Shown piece after piece: positions 1 to 64,000 of a stretch of 64,000 bases of DNA. The position numbers and the translations under genes were made by a program. The notes below the pieces were generated by a model. That model did not search any database. It saw only the letters and a program-made list of their open reading frames with translations, and was not told the origin of the DNA. This DNA comes from Goniomonas avonlea (Eukaryota > Cryptophyceae > Goniomonadida > Goniomonadaceae). The DNA is taken from assembly GCA_003573635.1 (NCBI GenBank), contig QUTJ01031852.1:25296-89295 (forward strand), given 5' to 3'. Each line of letters opens with the position of its first letter. The first letter of the stretch is position 1.

Positions 1-1
1 T

Positions 2-916
2 CGCTGACACTTGCACTGTCAATGAAGGCGACTGTACACCTCGTCCGATGGTCGGATAGGAAGGAAGGCTGAAAGTCTTGGCAGGTTGAATAATCACGGC
101 GCCATTCTTTGGGGGGGTGTACTCATACTTGTCAACTCCAGTGATTTCATACGAGATGGGTTGTTCACCAACCTCGTTTCCTTCCACGGTCCAAGTCTTC
201 GACCTGGTGCCTCCAGCATCGAACAAGAGCTGCGATGGAATGAATGTCAGTCCCGGACCGCTCGGCGTGATGATGACTCTGGATGGGGGCAGGGCCGACA
301 CTGCTACCGAGAGCTGTGGCGATTGGACATTCTTGCCCAACACAATATAGGTCGGAAGCTCGAACGTTTTTGCCTCTTGAATCGTCACACTCCCAGAAGC
401 CGGCAGGAAGTGCAACCTGTCCCTCCCAGATCGAGTGTACTTGATGTTCTGGATGCCATTGGTGTCACCCGTCACAGTCCAAGTCTGCGCTCCAGTTCCA
501 GTGAACGACAACGAACCAGGAGTGAAGGTCAGTCCAGGACCCGACGGGGTGATGGTGATGCTGGCTGGAGCCGAAATATCGACACTCATCTGGGGAGAGT
601 GCACTTTGTTACCCAACACGGGGTAAGTCGGAAGCAAGAACCTTTTCGCGGCAATGACAGTAACTGTCGTCGGGTCTGGGACAGTGAAGTTATATCGCGA
701 TGCCCCCGACAGGGTGTAGGTGACCGCCTGCACCCCTTGCTGAGAGCCGTGGAAGGTCCAGCTCGCTGCCTGTGGACCTCCTACTTGCCATGTGAGAGAG
801 CTTGGGGTGAACGTCAGACCATTTCCGGTGGGCGTGATGGTCACTTCCTCCCTCGGTGTGGATGACACCCGCAGCACCAAAGGATCAGATTCAACGTTCA
901 ACCCAATTACCGGGTA
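2..916 (-). repeat. Unit U0, partial (D1-D3 and start of D4)
   Basis: Start codons are at 914, 623, 347 and 56. D1, D2 and D3 are complete with the usual 97, 92 and 97 residues. D4 is cut after 19 codons by the window edge, where it reads YPTIGRGVQSPSLTVQVSA. This is the most C-terminal part in view. The array clearly continues beyond it. Confidence 0.9.
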
Positions 917-3900
917 CGGCGGAATGACGAAGAAATGGAAGGCGCCTTGGACAACCTGCTGTTGATCTGCAGGTGGAGTGTACTCGTACATATCTGCTCC
1001 AGAGCGCACATGCTTGACACTGTGAACTCCCTGCTTCGCTCCGTAAACCGTCAAAGTGTACATTGTCGCGCTGGAAGGAGTGAACGTAAACTCCGCCGGA
1101 GTGAACACCAGACCCTCACCGGACAGGGAGATAGTCACAGACGTTGTGGGCTGATCCGAGATACTGATGAACTGTGGCTCACTGGTCTGCTCCGTGTTAA
1201 CAGGGTGGTACCCAGGTAGGATAAATGTCTTGGCAGGCTGGATCCTCACGCTGCCTGGAGCTGGTGGCGTGAAGTGATATTTGTCCCGACCAGTCACAGT
1301 GTATGTGATAGGCTGCACTCCGTCGATCTCACCCATGACAGTCCATGTCTGGACCACAGTGCCAGTGAACGTCAGGCTTGTCGGGTTGAACGTCAGTCCG
1401 GGACCTGATGGAGTCACTGTGACGTCCGCTGGTTCTGAAATGCCGACATTGATTTCGTTGGATACCACGCGGTTGCCGAGCACAGGGTAACCTCCGAATG
1501 CGAAGGTCTTCGCAGGCTGTATAACGATATGATCCGGAAGTGGAGGAGTGTACAGATACTTATCCACACCAGTGATCTCGTACACAATCACCACTGGATC
1601 ATTGGGAATGCTCCCCATGACGTTCCACGATCCGGTCGTGACTCCAGGAGTGAAAGTTCGATTGGGAGGAGAAAAGATCAGTCCCTCTCCGGTCGGTGTG
1701 ATCATCACATCAGTCGGCGGCGCAGATGACACTTCGACATTCAGGGACACAGAAGTCACGTCCTTGCCTAAAGTCGGATATGTCGGCAAAATAAAAGTTT
1801 TGGCGGGCTGGATGATCACCGATCCATCAGCAGGAGGAGTGAACTCATACTGATCAGCACCGCTGATAGTGTACGTGACAGGAATGGTCCCGTCTTCCGT
1901 CCCGCGCACAGTCCAAGTTCCTTTCTTGCTGCCGCCGGCCTCAAATACCAAGCGTGACGGCTCGAAGGTCAGACCAGAACCGCTCGGTGTAATCACAACT
2001 CGGGTGGGTGGCAAATCTGACACAGACACCTCGTTGGGAGGCGACGTCACGCCGTTCCCGAGAGTGGTGTAAAGGGGAAGTTCAAAAGTCTTCGGATCCT
2101 GAACCTTCACGAAGCCGGTCTCGACCGTGAAGTGGAGCTTGTCTCGACCGGAGTACTGATACGTGATGACGTGATCGCCGTTGACGGTGCCTGTCACCTT
2201 CCATGTCTGCCCTCCGGGCCGGTCAAAAGTTAACGAGGCAGGCTCGAACGTCAGGCCTGCCCCTGATGGGGTCACAGTGATCTGGGCCGCAGAAGAGATG
2301 TCCACTCTCAGCTCACCAGAAGTCACACTGTTGCCAAGGACTGGATACTCTGGGAGATACATAGTCTTGGCAGGTATGATCGTTATCTTGGCCGGGTCCG
2401 GTGTGGTGAAGTTGAACTGAGACGCGCCAGCCAGAGCATAGGTGATTGTCTGCTCGCCCAATATGCTGCCGTTAACGACCCAGGTGTGGGACAGCGGACC
2501 GTTGGGTACCCATGTAAGTGAAAAGGGAGAGAAGGTAAGGCCCAGGCCAGAGGGGATCAACGTTACTTCCTCCTCAGGTCGGGTGGAAACGCGAATTTCC
2601 AAAGGATCCGACCTCACAGACTGTCCGAGCACTGGATAGTTAGGAATCTCAAAGATGTGATGAGTGCCTTGCACGGGCTGCACGCTCGTCTTTGGTGGGG
2701 TGTACTCGTACTGATCCGGTCCCGTCACGGTGTGCGTCACTGTGTGGAAACCAATTTCAGCAGCGGAGACGGTCAAAGTCCTCGTCTCCATGCTCGTAGG
2801 AGTGAACGTGAAGGAAGACGGAGAGAAGGATGCTCCGGTAGCAGACAGCGTAATGGTCACCGAAGTGGGAGGACGCTGCGACACAGTAATAGACAACGGC
2901 TGCGAGGTTTCACCAAGGTTGAGGGTGTAATACTCTGGCAAAACGAAAGTCTTGGCAGGCTTGATCAAGATGCTTCCATCCACAGGCGGCGTAAAGAGGT
3001 AGCGGTCCGGACCCGACAGAGCATAAGAAATCTGCTGGACCCCATCCAAAACACCCTTGACCGTCCATGTCCTGGTGAGCATGGCAGGAGAGAACGACAG
3101 CGTCGGAGGGGTGAACGTCAGCCCAGGGCCCGTTGGAGTCACGGAGACGGTCGCATTGGAAGAAATGTTGACCATCAACGGAGGCGACGTCACGTTGTTT
3201 CCGAGAGTCAGGTATGGCGTGAAGTAGAAGTGCTTCGCCGGAATAATTGTGATGTTGCTCGGCGCTGGGGGGAAGTAATGGTACTGATCCTCGCCAGAAA
3301 GAGTGTAGATGATTTCCTTGTAGCCGACAGCGCTGCCTTGCACCTTCCAGGTGCCCGACATCTTGTCACTCGTCATAGTGAGGTCCGAGGGATAAAAGGT
3401 GAGTCCATCCCCACTTGGCGTGATCTGAACACCGTTCGGAGGAGGAGGATTCGACACACCGACTGAGCGTAACGGACCCCACACGTTTTGGCCCTGCAAT
3501 GGATACGTGGGAATGAAGAACTTCTTCGCAAGGGTCACATACACAACCCCATTGTCTGGCTGGATGTACACATAACGGTCCAAGTCGGTGATGGTGTAGA
3601 TAATGTCCACGTAACCATACTGAATCGACACGACCTTCCATGTTTGGGACGTCACGCCCCCAGCTTCGAACAACAACGACGGGGGCGTGAACGTCAAGCC
3701 TTCGCCAGTCGGCGTGATGATGACACGTCTCGGGGGTGGGCTCGATACCGACACCTCCAACTGGCCTGAACTGACACCGTTGCCCAGCACCGGGTAGGTT
3801 GGAAGCAGAAACCACTTAGCGTCCACAATCCTCACGACACTTGACGCAGCTGCAAAGTGCAGCCTGTCTCGGCCAGAGAATGTGTAGGTGATTGGAATGT

Positions 3901-6900
3901 CACCGTTGATGGTGCCCATCAGAGTCCAATTCTGAGCACCCACACCAGTGAAATCCGCCCAACGGAGCTCCGAGGGAACAAACGTCAGGCCAGGGCCAGA
4001 CGGAGTCACCCTCACCTCAGAGGTCCTTGAAATATCCACCGGAAGCCCACCAGAAGTTACTGCATTGCCCATTAAGGGGTACTCTGGCAGGAGCAGGCGC
4101 TTTGCCTCGATGATACGGATGGTACCGTGATCGGGCACGGTGTAGTTGTGCATGGAAAAGCCAGACAGCTCGTATGTGACGGCCTGCAACCCTTCAATGT
4201 CACCCTTGACTCTCCAGGTCGCTGCGGTGCTGCCATCGGCGCGGAACGTAAGCGAACTCGGTGTGAAGGTCAATCCGGTGCCATTGGGTGTGATGGTCAC
4301 GTGCGCCTTGGGCGGCGATGACACACGGACAATCAAGTCCTCGGAGGTAACACCGGTTCCAAGGACAGGGTATTCGGGCAGCAAGAACGACTTGTGGGGA
4401 CCTTGCACCACCTGAATTTCGTCCGCAGGCCGTGTGAACTTATACATGTCGTTGCCAGACGTCGTGTGCGACACTGTGTGGAAACCAATCACGACACCAG
4501 TGATAACCAAACTCTGAGTCTGTGCGCTTGTTGGAGTGAACGTAAACTGAGAAGGCTCCATCCGGACCCCGAGGCATGTCAGCGTGATCGTGACAGAGGT
4601 CTCTGGCAGCTGGTTGACACTGATGAACTGACGCTCGCTCGTCTGACCAACATTGACGGTCAAATATGGTGGCAGGATGAACTTCTTAGCAGGTTGAATC
4701 TTGATGGTGTCAGCTTCAGGTTGCGTGAAGTGGTACTTGTCGGGGCCCGAGACTGTGTATTCAATGCTTTGCACGCCATCGAGGATACCACGGACCCGCC
4801 ATTGCTGCACTGTCGTATTGGTGAACGTGAGACTTGGAGGCGTGAAGGTCAACCCTGGGCCCCTTGCAGTCACAGTGACCTCCGCCGCCGCGGAAATGCC
4901 GACGCTGACGCCAGACCCCAGGATATCGTTGCCTTGCACGGGATATGTTGAAAAGCCAAAGGTCTTCGCGTTCTGGATGACGATTTGCCCCGTTTGGGGC
5001 GGTGTGAACAAGTACCGGTCCTTTCCTGAGATCGCGTAGACCACAGGAACCGGGTCACCCAGCACATTTCCTGTGACGGTCCACGTTGCAGACGTTTCAG
5101 CGTTGGTAAAGGTCAAACTGGCAGGTGAGAAGACCAGCCCGGTACCACTGGGTGTGATTGTCACCTGGGTAGGTGGCCCGGCCGAGACACCCGCCGTCAG
5201 TGCAGGCGACGTCACGTACTGCCCGAGAGTAGGGTACGTTGGCAGGGTGAAGGTCCTAGCTGTCTCAACCTTTACAATTCCCTGGGCAGGAGGTTTGTAC
5301 TCGTACTGATCGTTGCCGCTGATCAAATATGTAATTGGGATATTTCCGTTGACCGTGCCTCGAACAGTCCAGGTCTTGGAAGTGACTCCACCAGCCTCGA
5401 ACACCAGCTGAGCTGGAGCAAAGGTCAACCCAGGCCCACTCGGCTTGATCACCACTCGTGTTGGCGGTAAGTTGGAGAGGGAAACTGAAAGCTCTGGAGA
5501 GGTGACGCCGTTGCCAAGATCGGGGTAAGTTGGGAGGGTGAACGTCTTCGCATCCTGGATCGTGACGTTACCCGATGAGGGCAGGAAGTGCAACTTGTCT
5601 GGGCCTGAGAAAGTGTACTTGATGGACTGAAGACCATTAATGACACCTGTGACAGTCCATGATTGTGCGCCGCGAGAGACGAACGACAGAGAAGACGGAT
5701 TGAAGGTGAGGCCGGGGCCCGAGGGCGTCACTGTCACTTGTGCAGACGCAGAGATATCAACGCTTAGCTGTCCGGACGTCACACCATTGCCCAACACAGG
5801 ATAGGTGGGCTCCACGAGAGTCTTATTCGTGATGATGGTGATGGTGCCGGGGTCTGGTACAGTGAAATTGAAACGGGACGTGCCGCCAAGGGTGTACGTG
5901 ATCGCGTGAACACCCTCCTCCGTCCCGGTGACAATCCAGCTGCCCGTCATCGAGCCACCTGCTTGCCAGGACAAGAAACTCGGCGTGAAGGTCAGCCCAG
6001 TTCCCGTTGGGGTGATCTTTACATCGGCCCGAGGGAGGTTGGAGACTCGCAAAACCAAAGGATCAGACTTGACATCTGAACCGAGGGTCGGATACAGGGG
6101 GATCATAAAACCGTGGTATGGACCTTGGACCGCCTGCAGCTTGTCTTCTGGAGGCGTGTACTCGTACTTGTCAGCACCGGACACAACATGCGAGACCATG
6201 TGGAACCCGGTCTCAGAGGCGTACACGGTGAGGCTTTGGGTGGCCGCGCTGGCAGGCGAGAATGTGAAGGACGCCGGGGTGAACACGAGTCCTTGTCCAA
6301 AGAGGGTGACTGTGACAGAAGTAGTGGGCATCTGCGCCACACTAATGGTCAGAGGATTGCTGGTTTGCTCCACGTTCAGAGTGTAATACTCTGGCAAGAC
6401 AAAGACCTTCGCGGGTTGAATGGTGATGCTTCCAGGATTCGGAGGCGTAAAGTGGTACTTGTCTCGCCCAGTGACTTCGTACGTGATACTGTGAACACCA
6501 TCAATCGCACCAACGACAGTCCAAGACTGCACGTCTGTTCGGGTGAATGAGAGGCTGGGCGGTGTGAACGTCAGACCAGCTCCTGACGGTGTCACGGTCA
6601 CCGTAGCAGCCTCTGAAAGCCCGACGTTGCGTTCTCCTGACTCAACATTCACGCCCAGCACCGGGTAAGGCGAAAAGGCGAAAGTTTTTGCTGGCTGTAT
6701 GATGATCTGACCCGCTTGTGGGGGTGTGAACTCATACTGATCTGGACCAGTTATGAGATACACGATCTCCACTGGATTGCCCAGGGTGCTTCCCGTGACT
6801 TTCCAGGAACCAGAGGCCACAGCGTTCGTGAATGTTAAGCTCGGCGGAATGAAAGTCAGGCCGTCCCCACGGGGAGTGATCGTCACAGATGTAGGCGGGA

Positions 6901-9900
6901 CAGCAGAGACTTCCACTGGGAGAGACGCAGAGCGCACGTTTTGGCCCAATGTCGGGTACGTTGGAAGCAAGAATGTCTTGGCGGGTTGGATAGTGATTGT
7001 TCCAGGGGCTGGCGGTGTGTACTCGTACCGATCATCAGAAGAAATCTGATATGACACTGAGTGGACACCGTTCTGTGTTCCTCGGACGTTCAAGGTTGTT
7101 GAAGTTCCCGAAGTTGATTGGACAGCGCGAGTCGATGGCGTGGGAGCCAAAAACATCAGCCCAGCAGCGGTGAAGGTCAGACCGGTGCCACTGGGTGTGA
7201 TCACCACCCTGGTGGAGGGCGATTGCGACACGGACACAGTCAATGGTCCAGAAACCACTCCGTTGCCAAGAATCGGGTAGACAGGGACAGCAAATGTCTT
7301 CGCCTGCTGAACTGTTATATTGCCCGATGCAGGCAAAAAGTGGAGTCTGTCACGTCCGGTGACAGAGTACGAGATGGGCTGCATGCCGTTGATCACACCC
7401 GTGACTTTCCAAGTTTGCGCCCCGACAGCGGTGAACGTCAAAGAAGATGGCTCAAACGTCAAGCCAGAGCCTGATGGTGTCACCGTGACGGTTGCCTCTG
7501 CTGAAATGTCCACACTCAGGGCTCCTGACTTCACTCCGTTGCCCATCAAGGGGTATGTTGGAAGTGCGAGAGTCTTGGCCGGAATGATGGTGATACTGCC
7601 CGGATCCGGCACTGTGAAGTTGAACTGCGAGGCGCCCGAAAGGGTGTACGAGACAGCATAAAGTCCTGTCACTGAGCCCTGGACCTTCCAGCTTCCACTC
7701 AGGGATCCTCCGTTGACAAACGTCAATGCGCTGGGAGTGAACGTCAACCCAGTACCGGAGGGTGTAATGGTCACATCGACTCTGGGTTCAGAAGAGACCC
7801 GCAATATCAGTGATTCAGACTTGACTCCAGCCCCAAGCACAGGATACGCTGGGATGTCAAAGAAATGGAAGGCTCCTTGAACAACTTGGGCTCCGTCTGC
7901 GGGCGGGGTGTACTCATATTGGTCGGCTCCTGAAAGAGTCGAGACGACAGTGTGAATTCCAACCTCTGCACCATAGATGGTGAGGCTGAAGGTCTGTGCA
8001 CTGTGCGGGGTGAAGGTGAACTCGGTGGGAGTGAAGACGAGGCCAACAGCAGACAGGGTGATGGTCACCGACGTTGTTGGCTTTTCTACAACACTGATGG
8101 ACAAAGGCGTGCTCGTTTGTTCGACGTTGAGGATATAGTACGCAGGGAGCACAAACGACTTTGCTTGCTGAATGGTGATACTACCGTCAGCAGGAGGCGT
8201 GAAGTGGTACTTGTCGCGTCCCGTCACATCGTAGTAGATGCTGTGAATGCCATTGTACCAGCCCACAACGTTCCAGGTGAGAACCTCCGTTCCTGTAAAC
8301 GACAAACTGGACGGATTGAAAGACAAGCCAGCGCCAGTGGGAGTGATAGTCACAGACGCCGGAGCAGAAATCCCTACGTTCAGCTCGCCTGACGTCACGT
8401 TGCTTCCCAGCAATGGATAAACCGGCAACAAAAACGTCTTCGCGACCTGGATCGTGATCTGACCTGGCTGTGGTGGAGTGTACTGATAGCGATCTGCCCC
8501 GGAGATGGTGTACGCAATGTCCACAGGATCACCCAAGGTGGCTCCCGTCACATGCCAATGAGCGGAACCATTCGAGCTTGTGAACGTCAAGCTCGTGGGG
8601 GCGAATGTCAATCCTGAACCGCTAGGCGTGATCGTCACACCAGTGGGTGGCACAGCGGACACTTGCACCGGAAGGAGAACCGAGCGCACATTTCGTCCAA
8701 GAGTGGGATAACTCGGCAGGACAAATGTCTTTGGAGGTTGCACTGTCACCCTCCCATTCGCAGGAGGTGTGTATTCATATCGGTTCTCAGCGCTGATTGC
8801 ATACGTGATAGGGATATCGCCGTTGAGCGTCCCATGGACAGTCCAAGTTGCGGATGTGCTGCCACCGACCACAAACACCAGCTGTGATGGAGTGAACGTC
8901 AGCCCTGGTCCAGTGGGAGTAATCACCACCCGCGTGGTCGGCAGACTGGTCACTGACACGGTCAGAGGACCAGATTTCACGCGGTTTCCAAGAATCGGAT
9001 ACACCGGAAGTTGGAATCTGTTCGCCTCCTGAATGGTGATGGTGCTCGACGTTGGGGTAAAGTGCAGCTTGTCCGCGCCCGAAAGCGTGTACGTGATCTC
9101 ATGAATACCGTTGAACCTCCCAGTAACCTTCCATGTCTGAGCGCCAGTCACAACAAACGATAGTGAACTGGGTGTGAAGGTCAAACCCAAGCCCGAAGGA
9201 GTGATAGTGACACGCGCGTCGTCTGAAATGTCGACACTGAGCTCCTGTGACGTCACATTGCTGCCCAGCACGGGGTAAGTAGGCAAGAACAACGTCTTCG
9301 CCGGGATCACGGTGATGCTCCCAGGCTCAGGAACAGTGTAGTTGAAAGCAGATGCACCGGAGAGCGTGTACGTGACTGCGTGCTCGCCCTCGATGCTGCC
9401 TTTGACTGTCCATGTTGCTGTGATCCCGCTGTCGGGCTTCCAGGTCAATGATTGCGGAGCGAAAGTCAACCCAGATCCAGACGGAGTGATAGTGACTTCG
9501 ACATTTGGCAGCTTGGAGACGCGCAACACCAACGGATCTGACTCAACGTTGGTACCGATGAGCGGGTAACGTGGCACATCAATGATGTGATAAGCTCCTT
9601 GTACAGGTTGTAACCTGTCCTCTGGGGGAGTGTATTCGTACTTGTCCGTCCCTGTGACTTCATGCGAAACTACGTGGAAACCAATCTGAGATCCCCGGAC
9701 AGTCAATGTGCGAGTCTGGGCGCTTGCTGGCGTAAATACAAACGTTGACGGGGTGAACGTCAGGCCAAGCCCTGACAAGGAAACGGTGACCGACGTCGTC
9801 GGCATCTGGGCCAAGCTGAGGGACAATGGCTTGCTGGTCTCCTCGACATTCAAGCTGTAGTACTCTGGCAGCACAAATGTCTTGGCAGGCTGAATTTTGA

Positions 9901-54900: not shown

Positions 54901-57900
54901 TCTGTATTCCCTTGCCCGAGAACGATAACCTCGTTGGCGAGAAGGTCAGGCCAGGACCCGAAGGAGTCACTGTTACAGTTGCGGCTTCTGAAATATCAAC
55001 ATTGAGCCCACTGGAAGTGACGCCGTTGCCCAACACTGGATACGTGGCGAATCCAAAGGTCTTGGCAGGTTGCACAGTTATCTGGCCGGGCTGAGGGGGA
55101 GTGTACATGTACTGATCAGTGCCCGTGACATCGTACACGATCGCAACAGGGTCTCCGAGAGTGTTACCAGCGACGGTCCAAGTGCCAGAAGCAACTCCAT
55201 TGGTGAACGTAAGGCTCGTCGGTGAGAACACGAGTCCAGCGCCACTGGGAGTGAGGGTGACCTGAGAAGGCGGCGCCACAGATGCTTGCACCGCAAGAGA
55301 GCCAGACCTGACATCAAGGCCGAGTGTAGGGTAGCTCGGAAGCACAAACTCGAAGGCCGCCTGAACCGTCACCGAACCGTCGGGTACCGGAGTGTAGTCG
55401 TAGAGATTCTCTCCGCTGATCGAATACGACACAGCAATGACACCATCCTGTGCTCCTCGCACCGTCCAGGTGGCGGATGAGCTCTGACCGTTGTTGAATG
55501 TCAATTGTGCCGGTGTGAATGTCAGGCCTGATCCACTCGGAGTGATTACTACTCGAGTGGGCGGCAATTCTGAAACAGACACAGTCAGTTGGCCCGACGT
55601 TACACCGTTGGCGAGTGTCGGATAGGTAGGGACCGCGAATGTCTTAGCTGCCTGAATGGTGATCACACTCGATACAGGTGCGAACTGAGCCTTGTCAGGA
55701 CCCGAAAGATCATAGGAGATGGGTTGATCACCATTGAGGTTGCCCGTAACCGTCCAAGTTTGAGCTCCAGTTGCGGTGAAGGACAATGCCGAAGGTGAGA
55801 AGGTAAGGCCCGGACCAGATGGCGTGACTGTCACGGTTGCGGCGGCCGAAATATCCACGCTCAGCTGCTGGGAGGTCACTCCAGTGCCCAACACGGGGTA
55901 AGTTGGCAACGCCAACGACTTGGAAGCAACAATCGTGATACTGCCAGGATCAGGAACAGTGTAGTTGAACCTGGACATGCCCGACAACTGGTATGTGACA
56001 GCGTGAACACCTTCTTGAATGCCCTTCACCGTCCAGGACTGGGTGATTGAGCCACCAGCGGTCCAAGTGAGGGACGGTGGAGTGAATGTGAGGCCGGTGC
56101 CCGATGGAGTCAAAGTAACAGAATCCTGGGGCAATGCCGAAACTCGAGATGTCAGCTGGTCTGATGCCACACCGACACCAAGAACGGGGTAGGCTGGAAT
56201 ATCAAAGTCGTGTTGGGCTCCAGTGACCGGCTGTACTTTGTCTGGGGCAAGAAGATATTCGTACTTGTCTGTGCCAGTCACCACGTGAGTCACCGTGTGG
56301 AAACCGGCTCGCAGGCCCGTTACAGTCAGCGACTGAGTGGTGGCACCAGATGGGACAAAAACAAACTGCGCAGGAGAGAACTCGAGACCAGGCCCAGCGA
56401 GGTGAATTGTCACCGAGGTTGAGGGCGCGACGTCAACGCTGATTGATCGCGGCTCGCTCGTTTGTCCCACGTTGAGGCTGTCGTATCGAGGCACCACAAA
56501 CCTCTTGGCGGGCTGGATTGTAACGCTACCGGAAGCCGGAGGAGTGAACTGGCGTCTGTCAGGACCAGAAACCGTGTAGGTGATGCTCTGCACCCCGTTG
56601 ATAGAGCCTGAAACTGTCCAGGGCTGAACTTCCGTGCCAGTGAAGGAAAGACTTGAGGGTGAAAAGGTCAAACCTGGACCAGATGGAGTTACAGTCACCG
56701 TCGCCGCTGCAGAGATCTGCACGTTGAGCTTGCCAGACGTGACACCGTTGCCCAGCACTGGGTACGTGGAGATTGCGATAGTCTTCGCAGCTACAATGAC
56801 GATCTGCCCAGGAGGCGGAGGCGTGTACTGTGCCTGATCAGCACCAGAAATGGCATAGGTGATCTCCACAGGGTCACCCTCAGAAGCACCGGACACAGCC
56901 CAGGTGGCAGACGTCACCCCACTCGTGAAAGTGAGAGTCGTAGGGGAGAACGTCAGCCCCGATCCACTCGGTGTAATTGTCACAGCAGCAACAGGCGCTG
57001 AAGACACTCCTACGGTCAGAGGCTCAGATGTTACGCCTTGACCCAGAGAAGGATAAGTTGGCAGCGCAAACGTCTTGGCTGTTTGCACTGTGACAGTGCC
57101 AGCCTCTGGTGGTGTATATTCATACTTGTCCAAACCACTGATTGAGTATGTCACCGGGAAACTGCCAGCCTGCGAGCCTCGCACAGTCCATGTCTGCGAG
57201 CTGCTTCCACCCGCAACAAATTCAAGCTGCGATGGAGTGAACGTCAGCCCGGTTCCACTCGGTGTGATCACGGCTCTCGTTGAAGGCAGGCTGGAGACCG
57301 AAACACTTTGAGAACCAGAAGCAACACCAACACCAAGCACAGGGTAGGTTGGTAGTGCGAAGGTCTTCGCTGCCTGAATCTTGATGTTGCTGGAAGAAGA
57401 GGAAAACTGGAGCTTGTCCGGGCCCGACAGGGCGTAGGCAATTGGCTGATTACCAGTGATGGTGCCGGCAACAGTCCAAGTCTGCACACTCGTCCCCGTG
57501 AACGACAGCGACGAGGGAGAGAACGTCAGGCCCGGGCCCGATGGAGTCACCGTCACTGCTGCCGGAGCAGAAATAGCAACATTCAGCTGCCCAGAGGTGA
57601 CACTGTTGCCCAAAACAGGGTATGTGGGGAGCACAAGCGTTTTGGCAGCGATGATGGTGATGCTGCCGTCGTTTGGCGTGGTGAAGTTGAACTTTGAAGC
57701 ACCGGTCACACTGTAGGTGATGACCTGCTCGCCTGTCTTGCTGCCCTGGACCTTCCATGTTGCAGTGGTAGCGCCAGAAGACTGCCATGTGAGCGAACTG
57801 GGTGTGAAGATCAACCCTGTTGCTGAAGGAGTGATTGTCACATCTTGCTGGGGGAGGGCAGAAACGCGGACACTCAGCTCCTCTGACGGCACATCCTTTC

Positions 57901-60900
57901 CAAGAACAGGGTATGCAGGAATCTCAAACACTTGGTAGGCTCCTTTGACATGCTGAACTCGGTCGGAAGGAGGAGTGTACTCGTACTGATCCGCACCAGT
58001 GACCACATGCGCAATGGTGTGGGCGCCCACTTGAAGCCCCTTGATTGTCAAGCTCTGAGTGGTCGCACCAGACGGAGTGAAAGTGAACGTGGCAGGGTTG
58101 AACTCCAGATTCGGCGCCGAGAGTGTAATCACAACCGAGGACGACGGCACTTGCGACACGCTGAGCGACTGAGGATTGCTCGTCTGACCCACGTTGATGG
58201 CAGAATATGACGGCAAAATAAACACCTTCGCGGGTTGGATCGTGATAGTTCCTGGTGAAGGTTGAGTGAAGTGGTACCGATCCGGACCTGAAATCGTGTA
58301 GGTAATAGACTGAACACCATCAATCACACCCTTCACGTTCCAAGTCTGTACATCTGTGTTCACGTTCGTGAATGACAAGCTCGCAGGGGTGAAGGTCAAC
58401 CCAGGGCCGGAAGGAGTCACTGTCACAGTCGCCGGAGCCGAGATGCCCACCGTGAGTTGTCTGGATACCACCCCGTTGCCCAAGACAGGGTAGGTCGAGA
58501 ACCCAAACGTCTTCGGCGACAAAATGACAATCTGTCCCGGTTGAGGGATAGAGTAAAGATACTTGTCAGAGCCAGAGGTTGTATAAACCACCGCCACAGG
58601 GTCTCCCAACGTGCTGCCAGTCACCTTCCATCCACCAGATGTCACTCCTCCATTGGTGAAGGTCAAACTCGTGGGGGTGAACGTCAGTCCGGAGCCGCTC
58701 GGCGTGATAGTGACGTCTGTCAAGGGGACAGAAGAAACTTGAACGGTTAGCGACGCCGATGTCACATCCTGGCCAAGCGCGGGGTACGTCGGCAGGACAA
58801 AGGTCTTGGCGGGCTGCACAGTCACGGTACCAGCGGCGGGAGGCGTGTACTCGTGCCTGTCCTCACCACTAATCGCATACGAAACTGTGATAGTGCCATC
58901 TTGGACGCCGCGCACAGTCCATGTCTTTGACGTGCTCCCACCGCCCTCGAACGACAGTTGTGGCGGATTGAAGGTCAGGCCAGGCCCTGAAGGGGTGACC
59001 ACCACCCGAGTTGGCGGCAACGCAGACACCGACACTGCCAGCGGGCCAGAGGTGACGCCGTTTCCGAGGACGGGATAAGAAGGCACAAAGATACTTTTGG
59101 CCTCCTGGATTGTCACACTCCCCACCGACTTGGAGAAGTGCAGCTTGTCTGGGCCAGACAGCGTGTAAGTGATTGCCTGCACACCGTTGATTGTTCCAGA
59201 GACCGTCCAAGTCTGCACCCCTGTGCCGGTGAATGATAAGGACCTTGGAGAGAACGTTAGGCCTGGGCCCGATGGCGTCACGGTCACTGTCGCTGTCGCG
59301 GATATATCTACAGCCAGCTGACCGGACGCGACACCCTTGCCCAGCACGGGATAGACGGGCAGCGCCAACGTCTTGGGAGTGATAATCGTGATGGTGTCGG
59401 GCGCTGGAACAGTGAAATTGAACCTCGAGGCTCCAGTTAACGTGTACGTGATGGCATGGGTGCCCTCTTGACTGCCCTTCACTGTCCAAAGCTGGCTCAA
59501 GGCACCACCTGCTTGGAACCTGAGGGAGCTGGGAGTGAAGGTCAATCCAGTCCCAGATGGTGTGACCGTAACATCTTGCTGGGGTCGCGAGGACACCTGA
59601 ACCGTCAGAGAATCGGAATCGACGTTTGCTCCGAGAGCAGGGTACACGGGGATACTGAAGAACTTCGCTGCCCCTTGAACTGGTTGTACACCATCGCCAG
59701 GTGGGGTGTACTCGTACTGGTTTGCACCAGTGACGGTGTGCTTCACCGTGTGGAAGCCTTGCTGCAGGCCCTTGATCGTCAAGCTCTGCGTGGTTGCGAC
59801 CGACGGGGTGAAAGTGAACAGAGATGGCGTAAACTCTAGCCCCGGGGCTGAGAGCGCGATTGTTACGGTCGTCGTTGGGGCCTGGGACACACTGATGTAC
59901 CGGGGCTCGCTCGTCTGGCCAACATTCAGCGACTCGTACGAAGGGAGCGTGAAAGTTTTGGCTGGCTGGATCGTGATGCTGCCTGGAGATGGCTGAGCAA
60001 ACAGCTGGCGATCGGCGCCGGAAACGGTGTATGTGATGGATTGCGTCCCATCAATCACACCCTTGACTGTCCAAGACATGATTGTAGCTCCGGAGAAAGA
60101 CAGGCTCGATGGAGCGAATGTCAGCCCCGCACCGGATGGAGTCACAGCGACCGAAGCATTGGAGGAAATCTCAACATTCAAGCTCGAAGAAGTCACACCA
60201 TTGCCTAGGATCGGGTACGTCGAGAAAGCGAAACTCTTCGCGGGAACGATTGTGATCTGTCCCGGCTGCGGAGGAGAATACTGCGCTTGATCCACGCCTG
60301 AGATTACGTACACAATCTCCAACGCGTTGCCAACAGAGCTGCCGCTGACCTTCCAGGTTCCCGATGTAACCCCACTTGGGAACGTCAGACTGGATGGGGA
60401 GAAGGCTAGTCCGGGCCCGCTCGGTGTGATCGTCACTGCGGTGGGCGGGGCGGTGGACACCTGGACTGTTAGTGATGCAGATTGGACATTCTGCCCAAGG
60501 ACTGGATAGGACGGGAGATTGAAGGTTTTTGCTGGCTGGATGATGATCGATCCTGATGGAGGAGGAAGGTACTCAGACTGGTCGACTCCGGATATCACAT
60601 ACGATACTGTGATAGTGCCATCCTGAGTCCCCTTCACCGTCCACATCAATGAAGTGCTGCCACCGGGAACGAAAGACAGCTCTGCCGGAACAAATTTCAG
60701 ACCAGGTCCGCTGGGAGTGATTGTGACGCGTGTCGGCGGCAAATCGGAGACAGAAACTGTCAACGAGGAAGATACCACCCCGTTCCCAAGAGTAGGGTAA
60801 CTGGGCACCGAGAACAGTTTCACGTCTTGAACGGTCACGGTGCTCGTAGCCTCCTGGAAGTGGAATCTGTCGGGACCTGAGATAGTGTATGCGATTGGAT

Positions 60901-63900
60901 GGACACCGTTCACTGTGCCCGTCACAGTCCACGTCTCAACACGCCTTCCAGTGAACACCGCCCAGCGATGCACGGAGGGTGAAAAGACCAATCCGTTGCC
61001 AGAGGGTGTGACAATGACGTCAGCTGGAGCTGAGATATCCACATTCAACTGGCGTGATTCCACGCCGTTACCAAGAACGGGGTATGTTGGCACCAAGATC
61101 GATTTGTGCGGGATGATGGTGATGCTGCCTGGATTGGGAACGGTGTAGTTGAACTTAGAAGGACCCGACACCAAGTATGTGATGGCTTGAACGCCTTCTT
61201 GACTGCCCTTCACCTTCCAGGTGGCCGTCATCGACCCGCCAGCTAGCCAAGTGAGGGAGCTAGGAGTGAATGTGAGTCCGTTGCCGGTTGGAGTAACCGT
61301 GACACCGACGTTGGGCAAGGAAGACACTCGAATCACAAGAGGATCAGACTCGACATTGTCTCCAAGCGTGTAGTAGGCGGGAATATCAAACGCCTTGTGG
61401 GATGTCTGTACAGACTGGACCCTGCTCGATGGAGTGAGATAGCGGTACTGATCAGCTCCGCTCACAACATGCGACACAGTATGAGAGCCAACTTGAACTC
61501 CCTTGACCCTGAGGGTTTGCGTCGTAGCCCCCCAGGAATGGAAAGTAAACTGTGGAGGAATGAACTCCAGCCCAGGCCCGGACAGCGTGATCATTACTGA
61601 CGTTGTCGGAGCCGCTGAAACACTGATGGACTGGGGGTCGCTCGTCTGCCCCACATTGAGAGTTGGGTACGCCGGCAGGATGAAAGTCTTGGCAGGCTGA
61701 ATTGTGATGCGGTCAGCGGCCGGCTGAGCGAACTGATACTGGTCCGAGCCAGACACCACGTACGTGATTGTCTGAGTGCCGTCTATCACACCCTTCACCG
61801 TCCATGTCTGGACAGTGGTCCCAGTGAACGACAGGCTCGAAGGCACAAACGTCAGTCCGGGACCAGATGGAGTGACGGTGACTGTCGCCGCAGCGGAGAT
61901 ACCGACATTAAGTTCCTGCGAAGTGACACTGTTGCCAAGGACTGGGTACGTCGAGAAACCAAATGTCTTGGGAGTGACAATGACAATCTGACCAGTCGAC
62001 GGTTGCTCATAAAGGTACTTGTCGGTGCCGGAAATGGTGTACGCGATGGAAATAGGATCACCGACAACATTCCCAGTCACACGCCACGTGCCAGAGGTGA
62101 CACCACTGGAGAATTGAACACCTGAGGGGGAGAACGCGAGTCCTGATCCCGCGGGTGTGATGGTAACATCGGTACCCGGAGCCTCAGATACATCGACCGT
62201 CAGCGATACAGACTGAACACCCTTAGCCAATGTCGGGTAGGCTGGAAGGACGAAACGCTTCCGGGGTTGAATTGTCACCGTGCCGTCTTCCGGTGGCACA
62301 AAGGTGTACTGATCCGCACCACTGACCGTATAGGTCACAGGAATCACCCCGTTCTGCGTACCAGTCACAGTCATTGTCTGCGATGTCGGATTGGCACGGG
62401 TGGAAACAGAGCGGACGGATGTCGTGCCAGGCTCGAACACGATGCTGGGCGGGTTGAAGGTCAGCCCGGGACCGCTTGGTGTAATCACCACTCGAGTAGG
62501 TGGAAGGCTTGACGCAGAGACCGTTAGTGGCCCTGAGGACACGCCGTTGCCCAGCACCGGATACGTTGGGAGACTGAACGTTCGGGCATCCTGAATAGTC
62601 ACGCTGCTCGAAGCTTGTGTAAAGTGCAACGTGTCGGGACCGGACAGAGTGTAGGTGATAGCCTGAGCGCCGTTGACTGTGCCAACTACTGTCCACGTCT
62701 GCGATCCGGTTCCAGTGAACGAGAGCGATGCTGGAGAGAAGGTTAGACCTGTTCCAGAGGGAGTCACCGTCACCGTAGCTGCCGCAGATATGTCAACATT
62801 CAGCTCCCCGGACCTCACACCGTTCCCAAGTGCGGGATAGGTAGGGAGAATCAGAGTTTTCGGAGCAATGATGTTGATGGTGCCCGGGTTTGGAACCGTA
62901 TAGTTGAACTGGGAGGCACCAGAGAGAGCGTAAGAAACTGCATGGGTGCCCTGCTGACTGCCCTGGACGGACCAGGTCAAGGCCGAGGCCCCGTTTGATT
63001 GCCACGTCAGGGCACTCGGAGTGAAGGTCAACCCTGTGCCCGAGGGAGTGATCGTCACTTGCGAGTTGGGCAGAGACGACACACGGACTGTCAGAGAACC
63101 GGACTTGACACCTGCACCAAGAGCTGGATATGGAGGAATGTCAAATATTTTGTTGGCTCCTTGGACGGCCTGCACTCGTTCACTCGGCGGCGTGTATTCA
63201 TACTGGTTGACCCCAGAGACATCGTGCGAAACTGTGTGGAAACCTTGCACAGCTCCGTAGATTGTCAAAGACTGAGTTGTCGCACCCGAAGCAGTAAAAG
63301 TGAACTGGAACGGGGTGAACTCTACACCCGGAGCCGACAGGGTGACTGTGACCGAATCCGACGGAGGCTGCGATACACTGATCGTCTGCGGGCCACTGTT
63401 CTGCCCGACATTCAGGGTGCCGTATGCCGGGAGAGTGAAGAACTTGGCAGGGCGAATCGTGATACTGTCAGATGCAGGTTGAAGGAATTGATACTTGTCT
63501 GGCCCCGACACAGAGTACTCAATAGGTTGGGTCCCATCAATGGCACCAGTTACAGTCCATGTCTGCACTGTGGTACCCGAGAAAGACAAGCTCGCAGGTG
63601 AGAAAGTTAGGCCTGGACCCGAGGGAGTTACCACGACCGTGGCTGGAGCAGAAATGCCAACATTGAGTTGCTTCGAGGTCACACCGTTGCCCAGCACCGG
63701 GTACGTCGAGAAGGCAAACGTCTTCGAGGCAAGGATTGTGATCTGGCCTGGCTGGGGCGTTGTGTATTGGCTTTGATCACTCCCAGAGACAACATATGAA
63801 ACCGCCACTGGGTTGCCAATCGTGCTTCCGGCCACCTTCCAAGTCGCAGAAGTGACTCCCGGAGTGAACGTGAGGCTCGGAGGTGAGAAAGTCAGTCCCG

Positions 63901-64000
63901 ACCCGCTCGGCGTGAGAGTGACCGAGGACGGCGGCGCAGACGAAACTTGCACCGTCAGTGCGCCAGACTGAACGTTCTGTCCCAAAGTCGGATAGGCAGG
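2..64000 (-). CDS. Giant tandem Ig-like repeat protein, internal part (open at both ends)
   Basis: One minus-strand frame is open across 21,333 codons. The start codons of all 222 complete repeats (and one truncated repeat at the low end) fall in this frame, so there is no frameshift or intron. The product is a string of 92-98-residue domains. Typical parts in order are a YPVLGNGVTSG-like start, an LxVxIS strand, VTVTPSGPGLTFTPSSLTF, TWTVTG, a GVQPITY-like strand, SGxDxYxFTPP and ITIQPAKTFVLP. Alternating hydrophobic and Thr/Ser/Val residues and a conserved central Trp suggest a beta-sandwich of Ig-like or Calx-beta-like type (inference). The consensus has no Cys; I noticed one at 4574 in U3. 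No signal peptide, membrane segment, catalytic domain or anchor is visible because both ends lie outside. At roughly 103 Da per residue, the visible part alone is about 2.2 MDa. The likely role is a secreted or surface structural/adhesive protein. I do not recognise a named gene. Confidence 0.95.
917..1210 (-). repeat. Domain class D6, reference copy (98 aa)
   Basis: Sixth domain of the unit, shown in U1. The class usually starts LPEYYTLNVGQTSEPL with a Tyr pair (Tyr-His in U1), continues ISVxQPPxTSVTITLSG, QFTFTPSSATTQSLTV and AGFHTVSHVVSGADQYEYTPP, and ends with a distinct QVVQGAxHFFDIP segment that leads into D1. This ending replaces the ITIQPAKTF strand of the other classes. The class has 98 residues, except 101 in U8. 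Confidence 0.85.
1211..1489 (-). repeat. Domain class D5, reference copy (93 aa)
   Basis: Fifth domain of the unit, shown in U1. It is preceded by KTFAF and starts YPVLGNxVxS. The short VGIS-xAAxVTVTPSGPGLTF core is like that of D2, followed by VQTWTVTG and GVQxITYTLSGPDKYHFTPP. It is 93 residues except in U2 (94), U13 (97) and U34 (95). Its near identity of layout to D2 is the main sign that the six-domain unit arose from a three-domain one. Confidence 0.85.
1490..1780 (-). repeat. Domain class D4, reference copy (97 aa)
   Basis: Fourth domain of the unit, shown in U1. The signature is YPTLGQGVTSASLTVQVS, then APPTSVTITPSG, a loop GVTSxTWKVTGSTLGDPV with Gly-Asp-Pro before the IVY strand, and an ending SGADQYEYTPPxPGQI. 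Lengths are 97 residues, with 96 in U13 and U19 and 98 in U21 and U34. The first Tyr of the DQYEY motif is the residue that changes to Ala, Pro, Ser or Asn in a subset of units on the right side of the window. Confidence 0.85.
1781..2071 (-). repeat. Domain class D3, reference copy (97 aa)
   Basis: Third domain of the unit, shown in U1. The signature is GVTSGPLTVSVSxLPPTRV, VITPSGPGLTF, LVFEAGGS, a GTxNGDIPITY strand, and an ending SGADQYEYTPP. The start in U1 reads YTTLGNGV. Most copies have 97 residues; U6 has 96. U4, U22, U28 and U36 have 107-108, from an inserted Ser/Thr/Arg-rich loop with a shared TRA triplet. Confidence 0.85.
2072..2347 (-). repeat. Domain class D2, reference copy (92 aa)
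   Basis: Second domain of the unit, shown in U1. The signature is YPVLGNGVTSGQLSVDIS followed directly by AAxVTVTPSGPGLTF; it lacks the extra LPP residues of the 97-residue classes. It ends with SGPDKLHF and VTIQDAKTF. Twenty-nine complete copies have 92 residues. Eight copies (U2, U11, U17, U19, U25, U27, U31, U35) have 95, because SFTG is replaced by a longer aromatic stretch of the type RWAxFTG. D2 resembles D5 closely. Confidence 0.85.
2348..2638 (-). repeat. Domain class D1, reference copy (97 aa)
   Basis: First domain of the six-domain unit, shown in U1. The class signature is a YPVLGxGVxSDPL start with Asp-Pro-Leu, then RVSxLP, LTW in place of LTF, an Ala-Gly-Gly-Ser loop, a GTEG turn, and an end with FNYTVPDPGSI before IIPAKTLLLP. 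It is 97 residues in every complete copy in the window except U21 (96). The TVPDPG ending, in place of TPP, separates it from all other classes. Its closest relative in the unit by length and position is D4. Confidence 0.85.
2639..4372 (-). repeat. Unit U2, six domains, 578 aa
   Basis: Start codons are at 4370, 4079, 3794, 3503, 3212 and 2930. D2 is three residues long (95) and carries LRWADFTG in place of the short SFTG. D5 is one residue long (94). This is the only long aromatic D2 in the left third of the window. Confidence 0.9.
4373..6094 (-). repeat. Unit U3, six domains, 574 aa
   Basis: Start codons are at 6092, 5801, 5525, 5234, 4943 and 4664, the standard spacing. D6 contains a cysteine (codon at 4574, in TLTCLG) at the place where other copies read TLSGPG; Cys is absent from the consensus. 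Confidence 0.9.
6095..7846 (-). repeat. Unit U4, six domains, 584 aa, long-loop D3
   Basis: Start codons are at 7844, 7553, 7277, 6956, 6665 and 6386. D3 has 107 residues. The ten extra residues lie around PSTRAVQSTSGTSTT, and the usual TWTV strand reads TLNV. The loop shares the TRA triplet with U22, U28 and U36 but is otherwise different. Confidence 0.9.
7847..9568 (-). repeat. Unit U5, six domains, 574 aa
   Basis: Start codons are at 9566, 9275, 8999, 8708, 8417 and 8138, the standard spacing. D4 keeps Tyr (DRYQY) and ends VLPSYPTLGRNV at its upstream junction. No indel is seen. Confidence 0.9.
9569..11287 (-). repeat. Unit U6, six domains, 573 aa
   Basis: Start codons are at 11285, 10994, 10718, 10430, 10139 and 9860. 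This is the shortest unit in the window: D3 has 96 residues, one fewer than normal. The other five domains have standard length. Confidence 0.9.
11288..13009 (-). repeat. Unit U7, six domains, 574 aa
   Basis: Start codons are at 13007, 12716, 12440, 12149, 11858 and 11579, the standard spacing. D6 has FSVESATTQSL where the consensus reads FTPSSATTQSL. Confidence 0.9.
13010..14740 (-). repeat. Unit U8, six domains, 577 aa, long D6
   Basis: Start codons are at 14738, 14447, 14171, 13880, 13589 and 13310. D6 has 101 residues, the only long D6 in the window. The three extra residues lie in FDASTSSTATTQSL, the same strand region that carries variants in other units. Confidence 0.9.
14741..16462 (-). 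repeat. Unit U9, six domains, 574 aa
   Basis: Start codons are at 16460, 16169, 15893, 15602, 15311 and 15032, the standard spacing. D4 keeps Tyr (DQYMY), although units U17, U25 and U33, which lie at multiples of eight above it, have Ala. Confidence 0.9.
16463..18184 (-). repeat. Unit U10, six domains, 574 aa
   Basis: Start codons are at 18182, 17891, 17615, 17324, 17033 and 16754, the standard spacing. D5 starts with Ser in place of Tyr (STSPPLGN, codon at 17033). This is the last unit before the eight-unit pattern becomes visible. Confidence 0.9.
18185..19915 (-). repeat. Unit U11, six domains, 577 aa, long aromatic D2
   Basis: Start codons are at 19913, 19622, 19337, 19046, 18755 and 18476. 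D2 has 95 residues, with FHRWAVYTGRELQPW and a QDVKWF ending. D4 has Asn in place of Tyr (DRNQY). Both traits recur in U19, U27 and U35 with related residues. Confidence 0.9.
19916..21637 (-). repeat. Unit U12, six domains, 574 aa
   Basis: Start codons are at 21635, 21344, 21068, 20777, 20486 and 20207, the standard spacing. D6 reads FAPFSSEAQAL; the FxPF form is shared with U20, eight units away. Confidence 0.9.
21638..23368 (-). repeat. Unit U13, six domains, 577 aa
   Basis: Start codons are at 23366, 23075, 22799, 22508, 22220 and 21929. D4 has 96 residues and Ala in DRAEY. D5 has 97 residues, four more than usual, with FSADFVGTEVHSW. This is the longest D5 in the window. Confidence 0.9.
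23369..25090 (-). repeat. Unit U14, six domains, 574 aa
   Basis: Start codons are at 25088, 24797, 24521, 24230, 23939 and 23660, the standard spacing. D6 reads FNPSTATVQFVQV in place of TTQSLTV; U22 has the related form FSATDAAVKFVQV. Confidence 0.9.
25091..26812 (-). repeat. Unit U15, six domains, 574 aa
   Basis: Start codons are at 26810, 26519, 26243, 25952, 25661 and 25382, the standard spacing. D4 keeps Tyr (DRYEY), as do U23 and U31 at distances of eight. D6 reads FASTSSNSQSL. Confidence 0.9.
26813..28534 (-). repeat. Unit U16, six domains, 574 aa
   Basis: Start codons are at 28532, 28241, 27965, 27674, 27383 and 27104, the standard spacing. D6 has FYSWGATSMSL and ends QGTTKIFEVP in place of the usual QGAFHFFDIP. 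Both features return in U24 and U32. Confidence 0.9.
28535..30265 (-). repeat. Unit U17, six domains, 577 aa, long aromatic D2
   Basis: Start codons are at 30263, 29972, 29687, 29396, 29105 and 28826. D2 has 95 residues with LGWAEFMGTGPQTW, like U25 eight units away. D4 has Ala in DQAEY. Confidence 0.9.
30266..31987 (-). repeat. Unit U18, six domains, 574 aa
   Basis: Start codons are at 31985, 31694, 31418, 31127, 30836 and 30557, the standard spacing. D4 keeps Tyr (DKYEF). D6 reads FTAAGASTHSL. Confidence 0.9.
31988..33715 (-). repeat. Unit U19, six domains, 576 aa, long aromatic D2
   Basis: Start codons are at 33713, 33422, 33137, 32846, 32558 and 32279. D2 has 95 residues, with RRWAVFTGTRVETW and a QDVKYVYVP ending. 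D4 has 96 residues and Ala in NQAMY. D1 begins YYVLG. Confidence 0.9.
33716..35437 (-). repeat. Unit U20, six domains, 574 aa
   Basis: Start codons are at 35435, 35144, 34868, 34577, 34286 and 34007, the standard spacing. D6 reads FTPFTAMSASL, similar to U12. D4 keeps Tyr. Confidence 0.9.
35438..37159 (-). repeat. Unit U21, six domains, 574 aa with compensating indels
   Basis: Start codons are at 37157, 36869, 36593, 36302, 36008 and 35729. D1 has 96 residues and D4 has 98, so the total stays 574. This is the only D1 with a changed length. D4 has Ala in the DxYxY position (LAEYTPP). Confidence 0.9.
37160..38914 (-). repeat. Unit U22, six domains, 585 aa, long-loop D3
   Basis: Start codons are at 38912, 38621, 38345, 38021, 37730 and 37451. 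D3 has 108 residues, with VFEPSQASLRSTTRAS and DSTTQYWTV. D6 has FVQV as in U14. D5 starts YRTLGNSV in place of YPVLGNGV. Confidence 0.9.
38915..40636 (-). repeat. Unit U23, six domains, 574 aa
   Basis: Start codons are at 40634, 40343, 40067, 39776, 39485 and 39206, the standard spacing. D4 keeps Tyr (DMYHY). D6 reads YTSSSNSPQSL. Confidence 0.9.
40637..42358 (-). repeat. Unit U24, six domains, 574 aa
   Basis: Start codons are at 42356, 42065, 41789, 41498, 41207 and 40928, the standard spacing. D6 has FHSWGATTQSL and ends QGTNKIFEVP, matching U16 and U32. Confidence 0.9.
42359..44089 (-). repeat. Unit U25, six domains, 577 aa, long aromatic D2
   Basis: Start codons are at 44087, 43796, 43511, 43220, 42929 and 42650. 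D2 has 95 residues with LTWAEFTGTGAKTW, like U17. D4 has Ala in DRAQY. Confidence 0.9.
44090..45811 (-). repeat. Unit U26, six domains, 574 aa
   Basis: Start codons are at 45809, 45518, 45242, 44951, 44660 and 44381, the standard spacing. D4 keeps Tyr (DMYQY). D6 reads FTNAGSLSKSF. Confidence 0.9.
45812..47542 (-). repeat. Unit U27, six domains, 577 aa, long aromatic D2
   Basis: Start codons are at 47540, 47249, 46964, 46673, 46382 and 46103. D2 has 95 residues, with LRWAVFTGVETKPW and a QDVKYISVP ending. D4 has Pro in DKPQF, the only Pro seen at that position. Confidence 0.9.
47543..49294 (-). repeat. Unit U28, six domains, 584 aa, long-loop D3
   Basis: Start codons are at 49292, 49001, 48725, 48404, 48113 and 47834. 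D3 has 107 residues, with FEPQSSSLRSATRASATSQ, and its TWTV strand reads SMTV. The closest match is U36, eight units away. Confidence 0.9.
49295..51016 (-). repeat. Unit U29, six domains, 574 aa
   Basis: Start codons are at 51014, 50723, 50447, 50156, 49865 and 49586, the standard spacing. D4 has Ala in DQAQY. D6 matches the consensus FTPSSATTQSLTV. Confidence 0.9.
51017..52738 (-). repeat. Unit U30, six domains, 574 aa
   Basis: Start codons are at 52736, 52445, 52169, 51878, 51587 and 51308, the standard spacing. D1 starts with Phe in place of Tyr (FAVLGSNV, codon at 52736), the only such D1 in the window. Confidence 0.9.
52739..54469 (-). repeat. Unit U31, six domains, 577 aa, long aromatic D2
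   Basis: Start codons are at 54467, 54176, 53891, 53600, 53309 and 53030. D2 has 95 residues, with LRWGVFTGTRQETW and a QDVKTF ending. It is a QDVK-type D2 that falls halfway between U27 and U35. D4 keeps Tyr. Confidence 0.9.
54470..56191 (-). repeat. Unit U32, six domains, 574 aa
   Basis: Start codons are at 56189, 55898, 55622, 55331, 55040 and 54761, the standard spacing. D6 has FHSWGAASQSF and ends QGTNKMIGIP, as in U16 and U24. Confidence 0.9.
56192..57913 (-). repeat. Unit U33, six domains, 574 aa
   Basis: Start codons are at 57911, 57620, 57344, 57053, 56762 and 56483, the standard spacing. D4 has Ala in DQAQY, as in U17 and U25. D2 is of the short type, unlike U17 and U25. Confidence 0.9.
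57914..59644 (-). repeat. Unit U34, six domains, 577 aa
   Basis: Start codons are at 59642, 59351, 59075, 58784, 58490 and 58205. D4 has 98 residues and D5 has 95, the latter with FTNVNTDVQTW. D4 keeps Tyr (DKYLY). Confidence 0.9.
59645..61375 (-). repeat. Unit U35, six domains, 577 aa, long aromatic D2
   Basis: Start codons are at 61373, 61082, 60797, 60506, 60215 and 59936. D2 has 95 residues, with HRWAVFTGRRVETW and a QDVKLFSVP ending. D4 has Ala in DQAQY. Confidence 0.9.
61376..63130 (-). repeat. Unit U36, six domains, 585 aa, long-loop D3
   Basis: Start codons are at 63128, 62837, 62561, 62237, 61946 and 61667. D3 has 108 residues, with FEPGTTSVRSVSTRANPTSQ. D6 has FHSWGATTQTL, an extra occurrence outside the U16, U24, U32 series. 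Confidence 0.9.
63131..64000 (-). repeat. Unit U37, partial (D4-D6)
   Basis: Start codons are at 63992 (D4), 63701 (D5) and 63422 (D6). The three domains have the standard 97, 93 and 98 residues. D4 has Ser in DQSQY. Two further residues (Pro-Ala) of the preceding domain are visible at the window edge, so the protein continues toward its N-terminus outside. Confidence 0.9.

Follow-up and report, generated by a model that had tools for sequence, protein, structure and literature searches.

An uninterrupted exon of 84,765 bp or more predicted to encode a giant glycosylated membrane protein of Ig-like repeats

Here we describe an exon of at least 84,765 bp that, in the reading we consider reasonably probable, encodes a giant type I membrane protein whose outer part is a glycosylated rod of Ig-like domains, probably acting as an adhesive tether. 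The exon fills the window, the 64,000-nt stretch of DNA analyzed here (C717:25296-89295), which is the right end of the 89,295-bp contig C717. The draft assembly to which the contig belongs (9,884,452 bases in 717 contigs), in which genes match exon by exon, was searched for related sequences. The predicted product would belong with the giant tandem-domain surface proteins; its anatomy is well supported, and adhesion or tethering is its likeliest function.

A six-frame stop count over the whole window gives 21,333 codons and 0 stops for minus-strand frame 0, read from base 64000 down to base 2 (2..64000), with 426 to 1,578 stops in each of the remaining five frames. This agrees with the original prediction that one open reading frame occupies the entire window and that the complete protein is larger, its termini lying outside. 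Extending the frame along the contig on both sides, as had been proposed, leads in the 3' direction to a stop at C717:4489-4491, for a total of 28,268 codons (C717:4489-89295, with an encoded mass of 2.95 MDa as read); on the gene's 5' side the frame is still open at the right edge of the contig. Neither an in-frame stop nor a frameshift occurs across these codons. As approximately 976 stops would be expected over such a frame from base composition, and 571 from position-specific composition, a chance origin is excluded.

The stop at C717:4489-4491 itself sits within an inferred intron, because a TIG domain resumes in-frame beyond it and a paralogous contig, C673, reads straight through the site without an intron. 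Four short GT-AG introns are predicted on the minus strand in the 3' part of the gene, at C717 4530-4420 (111 bp), 4208-4153 (56 bp), 4071-4012 (60 bp) and 3934-3873 (62 bp), their splice sites having been placed by eye from the GT-AG signals and paralogy; the exon is measured up to the first of the four donors. Splicing had been named as a finding that would count against an intronless stretch of this size. Introns are indeed predicted in the gene, but all of them lie downstream of the 84.8-kb exon, which they leave uninterrupted. The earlier observation is correct and understated, and its description of the exon as exceptional for a eukaryote holds as far as it is testable, in a host that looks eukaryotic.

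The greater part of the frame consists of tandem Ig-like units of about 97 aa, of which 268 were detected on the contig with a profile built from the sequence itself, in keeping with the original placement of the protein in the repeat-built class of titin and the giant surface proteins. There is no gap of more than 5 aa between unit envelopes, and the repeat is unbroken to residue 25,723; 222 unit segments, mostly 92-98 aa long and the first of them cut by the contig edge, lie in the window (1..64000, minus strand). Pairwise identity between units is ~60% at lags of 6n, 47% at 3+6n and 42-43% at other lags. From this pattern, the array grew first by the unit, then perhaps by a triplet, and then by a six-unit super-repeat of ~574 aa. 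When the units are assigned to six classes, the order 0-1-2-3-4-5 is strict for the first 262 of 267 classed units. A third, weaker period is also present, in that similarity between super-repeats at a distance of eight exceeds expectation (none of 2,000 permutations reached the observed value), and length variants of classes 4 and 5 recur partly at this eight-super-repeat spacing; examples are a class-4 unit of 95 aa instead of 92 (60815..61099, minus strand) and a class-5 unit that has 108 aa where 97 is usual (62255..62578, minus strand). Only 2 cysteines occur in array residues 1-25,629. The sole break in order falls outside the window, at unit 262 near codon 25,151, where 0-1-2-3 is followed by 1-2-3-4-5 and the end of the array, as if classes 4, 5 and 0 had been lost.

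Among 150 sampled full-length unit pairs per class, within-class pS is 0.69-0.72 and pN 0.23-0.31, corresponding to a corrected dN/dS of ~0.12-0.20, a rough value given that dS is near saturation. Because synonymous divergence is close to saturation at these values of pN, the units have been under long purifying selection; the copies are old, remain in frame and are under selection.

Against this background of divergence, class-3 units carry an N-[YF]-[TS] motif at one fixed position in 45 of 45 cases on C717, and in 9 of 9 on C572, a second contig with the same repeat. All 41 full-length class-3 units of C717 have the asparagine, with T as third residue in 38 of them and S in the other 3; units of the remaining classes mostly have E, Q or H at the corresponding position. 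A representative class-3 unit lies at 59369..59659 on the minus strand by class assignment, with its N-F-T sequon at 59411..59419 (minus strand; coordinates derived from the position in the unit). Sequons are depleted over the array as a whole, with 98 found and 145 expected from composition. Since the motif is invariant despite near-saturated synonymous sites, and sequons are otherwise below expectation, it points to a used N-glycan, one per super-repeat, and to an array that would be extracellular and would pass through the ER.

Downstream of the array, Pfam matches Big_6 (82.6 bits, cut-off 27.6) and TIG (57 bits, cut-off 20.9). Past the putative introns follow an EGF-like exon, a membrane-proximal domain, a hydrophobic helix and then the sequence RRRRQKRK. 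The EGF-like module is short and has four cysteines, recognized by eye; it matches an exon carried by C673, and Pfam gives no EGF match in the C717 gene. The membrane-proximal domain is common to two further contigs, C575 and C524, and is 28% identical to that of C575 (E 1.8e-7), where Pfam reports ZU5 at 23.6 bits (cut-off 21); there is no ZU5 match in the C717 gene itself. The helix is a strong candidate for a transmembrane (TM) segment, reaching a hydropathy of 2.92 over 19 residues, compared with at most 1.89 anywhere in the 28,268-aa frame. By inference, the gene product would be a type I membrane protein.

AlphaFold2 models of array pieces are high-confidence beta sandwiches. A three-unit stretch of classes 0, 1 and 2 (59660..60523, minus strand) is modelled as tandem beta sandwiches with a mean pLDDT of 96.1 and a pTM of 0.80, and a complete six-unit super-repeat of 574 aa (58802..60523, minus strand) has a predicted mean pLDDT of 94.0 and a pTM of 0.53. 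Foldseek matches to the modelled units are beta-sandwich proteins, many of them Ig-like; as Ig-like folds are generic, these matches are uninformative on function. Pfam searches with the units give little, with three sub-threshold families on a 999-aa piece of the window, and 11 families on 15 single units (best E 0.0049, Big_3_5).

We propose that the outer part of the protein would be a rod in which 268 or more Ig-like beta-sandwich domains stand in tandem, six to a super-repeat, each super-repeat with a single conserved N-glycan site; the rod would be followed by Big_6, TIG, the short EGF-like module, a ZU5-like domain, one TM helix and a basic cytoplasmic tail. The glycosylated rod would be roughly 1.2 micrometres long by our estimate, and could serve as a rigid or semi-rigid tether holding a putative N-terminal binding head more than 1 micrometre out from the cell surface, where it might act in adhesion, contact between cells or prey capture. 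The frame, the repeats and the selection on them, the sequon and the Big_6 and TIG domains are evident from the sequence; splicing, secretion, orientation, length, head and adhesive role are predictions drawn from it.

The strongest competing explanation, which we regard as distinctly less probable, is a structural coat or glycocalyx fibre, in which the protein would assemble in many copies into a surface layer, sheath or stalk, lacking a specific binding head, and rod length would set the thickness of the coat. The regular glycan site, once every six domains, would suit such a coat, as would the S-layer proteins SbsB and SbsC among the fold matches and the many giant frames in the same assembly. 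However, the fold matches are generic, and the TM anchor and basic tail are no less fitting for a tether or receptor.

A more distant candidate, and an improbable one in our judgment, is a titin-like molecular ruler or spring inside the cell or between membranes, with the number of domains setting its length. Titin (connectin) is likewise a giant chain of ~100-aa beta-sandwich domains in a similar size class, with higher-order super-repeats (10xIg in PMC12198301) that the hierarchy found here, of six units and then eight times six, resembles, and titin I65-I70 is among the Foldseek matches (E 9.2e-7), as one of many Ig-like chains. Yet no titin-type Ig (I-set) or FN3 domain was matched by Pfam in the 999-aa piece or the 15 single units, and the invariant sequon and the EGF-like and TM parts downstream indicate an extracellular array. 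The domain family, the extracellular-type C-terminal end and the N-glycan sequon all differ from titin, as does gene structure: human titin has 38,138 aa coded by all exons together, from 363 exons of which the largest is 17,106 bp (PMC12198301), whereas at least 84,765 bp lie in one exon here, a frame approximately five times as long as that largest titin exon. The array resembles titin in build, through its six-unit and eight-super-repeat periods, and not in descent.

A falsely concatenated or decaying repeat array is a very unlikely explanation: although the contig ends within the array and the repeat recurs on C572, the exon contains exact direct repeats of at most 28 nt, and identity reaches no more than 85% in any 100-nt in-phase window among 4,620 unit pairs, so that confusion of such old, diverged copies by an assembler is unlikely, while relic status sits poorly with a frame kept over 28,268 codons, strong purifying selection and a six-unit order that is strict for 262 units. 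Misassembly, named in the original prediction as a refuting outcome, has left no sign in the repeats, as judged from the assembled sequence. Microsatellites (at least 7 copies of a 1-3 base unit, at least 12 nt) number 0 in the coding part and two in the 4.5-kb flank.

Equally unlikely is that a bacterial contig was binned with a eukaryotic draft, an idea to which the Big_6 domains, the occurrence of giant single-frame adhesins in bacteria and the bacterial repeat proteins related to the unit lend something, but which is opposed by the predicted 3' introns, the first of them absent in the paralogue C673, by the EGF-like, ZU5-like and TM end, by the invariant N-glycan sequon, and by the finding of just four partial relatives among 51 pattern matches in a scan of a prokaryote collection. 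The host looks eukaryotic because of the GT-AG introns predicted in the 3' part of the gene and because actin-family matches come in five pieces, all on one contig of the assembly. This single actin-family locus suggests that the assembly is incomplete; searches of it returned no match for cadherin, POR_N, SH2 (for which the control was likewise silent) or an rDNA pattern, absences that are weak in an assembly of this kind. In a search of four loci, the unit profile matches a 2,526-aa frame from a Dehalococcoidia MAG (OY282355.1) at E 9.5e-31, a hint that the unit has bacterial kin. The same frame consists of bacterial repeats and ends in a proline-rich stretch and a hydrophobic segment.

The likeness of the proposed tether to the giant bacterial adhesins is one of working principle, as both MpAFP, with roughly 120 copies of 104 aa spanning ~0.6 micrometre (PMC4083281), and SiiE, with 53 BIg domains (PMC5466336), are long cell-surface rods of tandem Ig-like domains. 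MpAFP repeats are identical and are stiffened by Ca2+ bound to acidic residues between them (PMC4083281). The C717 repeats, in contrast, are diverged, and they belong to a eukaryotic gene with putative introns and a TM helix. MpAFP-type acidic Ca2+-binding linkers were not found in the array when D+E content was taken, class by class, over the last 8 and first 8 unit positions, where it is 0.2-6.6% in the six classes; acidic columns conserved in at least 80% of units are inside the units and not in the linkers. Because the gene ends in introns, a TM helix and a basic tail, it would appear to have neither the type I secretion C-terminus of an RTX adhesin nor a bacterial host. Giant size is also shared with the PKZILLA synthases, multi-domain enzymes of a microbial eukaryote, yet the pieces of the window scanned with Pfam (999 aa and 15 units) contain no polyketide-synthase domain. 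In a survey of proteins of more than 5,000 aa, Apicomplexa and Fornicata are described as rich in them (PMC11573180), a pattern to which we claim no link for this host. A word search of open literature on very long exons, giant proteins and comparable protist genes returned no report of a similar exon or gene, which is not proof of absence.

The exon may be longer than the contig allows. C572 (15,525 bp with two N) is open throughout, for 5,174 codons of the same super-repeat, and its best phase against C717 is an offset of 1 modulo 8 super-repeats. It may be an upstream part of the same gene, with approximately six super-repeats missing between the two contigs, or a close paralogue. Simple adjacency with a 45-aa gap, as the six-unit phase alone would have it, was rejected on the eight-super-repeat phase, which gives the approximately six intervening super-repeats. 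Should C572 belong to the gene of C717, with the eight-super-repeat period continuing across the gap, the exon would reach ~37,000 codons.

C717 is also not alone in the assembly. A TIG search, with 150 of 1,956 candidates scored, found at least 18 contigs with frames of at least 5,000 codons, which together with C717, C673, C572 and C575 makes at least 22; the frames read among these 22 are those of C717 and C572 and parts of those of C673 and C575. To judge from this family, giant surface rods would seem to be a principal trait of the organism. We tentatively extend this to the view, short of an even chance, that a nuclear single exon of at least 84.8 kb, and probably more than 100 kb, encodes a surface rod in the titin size class, and that the single-frame giants of the assembly reflect a strategy of the genome in which exons without interruption supply a giant extracellular surface. 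Such a gene poses questions about the synthesis, export and error-free translation of its transcript, about the passage of a multi-megadalton glycoprotein through the ER, and about what preserves, over so long a time, the number of domains and a glycan site that recurs once per super-repeat.

Of the traits of TIG, DUF4215, EGF and ZU5 membrane proteins, a group represented in the same assembly by C575, C673 and C524, the C717 gene has the TIG domains and a predicted single TM helix with a basic cytoplasmic side. C575 is a 15,548-bp contig with a frame of 5,182 codons; the part read (C575:1-6000) has a long TIG-like array, three DUF4215 domains by Pfam, an EGF-like part, ZU5 and a hydrophobic helix, and differs from C717 in these TIG repeats with DUF4215. 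C673:14500-20500 has the repeat unit of C717, Big-like and TIG-like stretches recognized by eye and the EGF-like exon, and unlike C717 it has a T/S-rich, mucin-like linker. Past the modelled tail of the C717 gene, C717:1-3000 contains open stretches, three of them without a Pfam match, together with a GT run and a 35-base poly-C; the open stretches may be further exons or another gene. The largest frames among the TIG-search matches listed are those of C716 (19,158 codons) and C715 (19,025 codons), with TIG domains spread along both.
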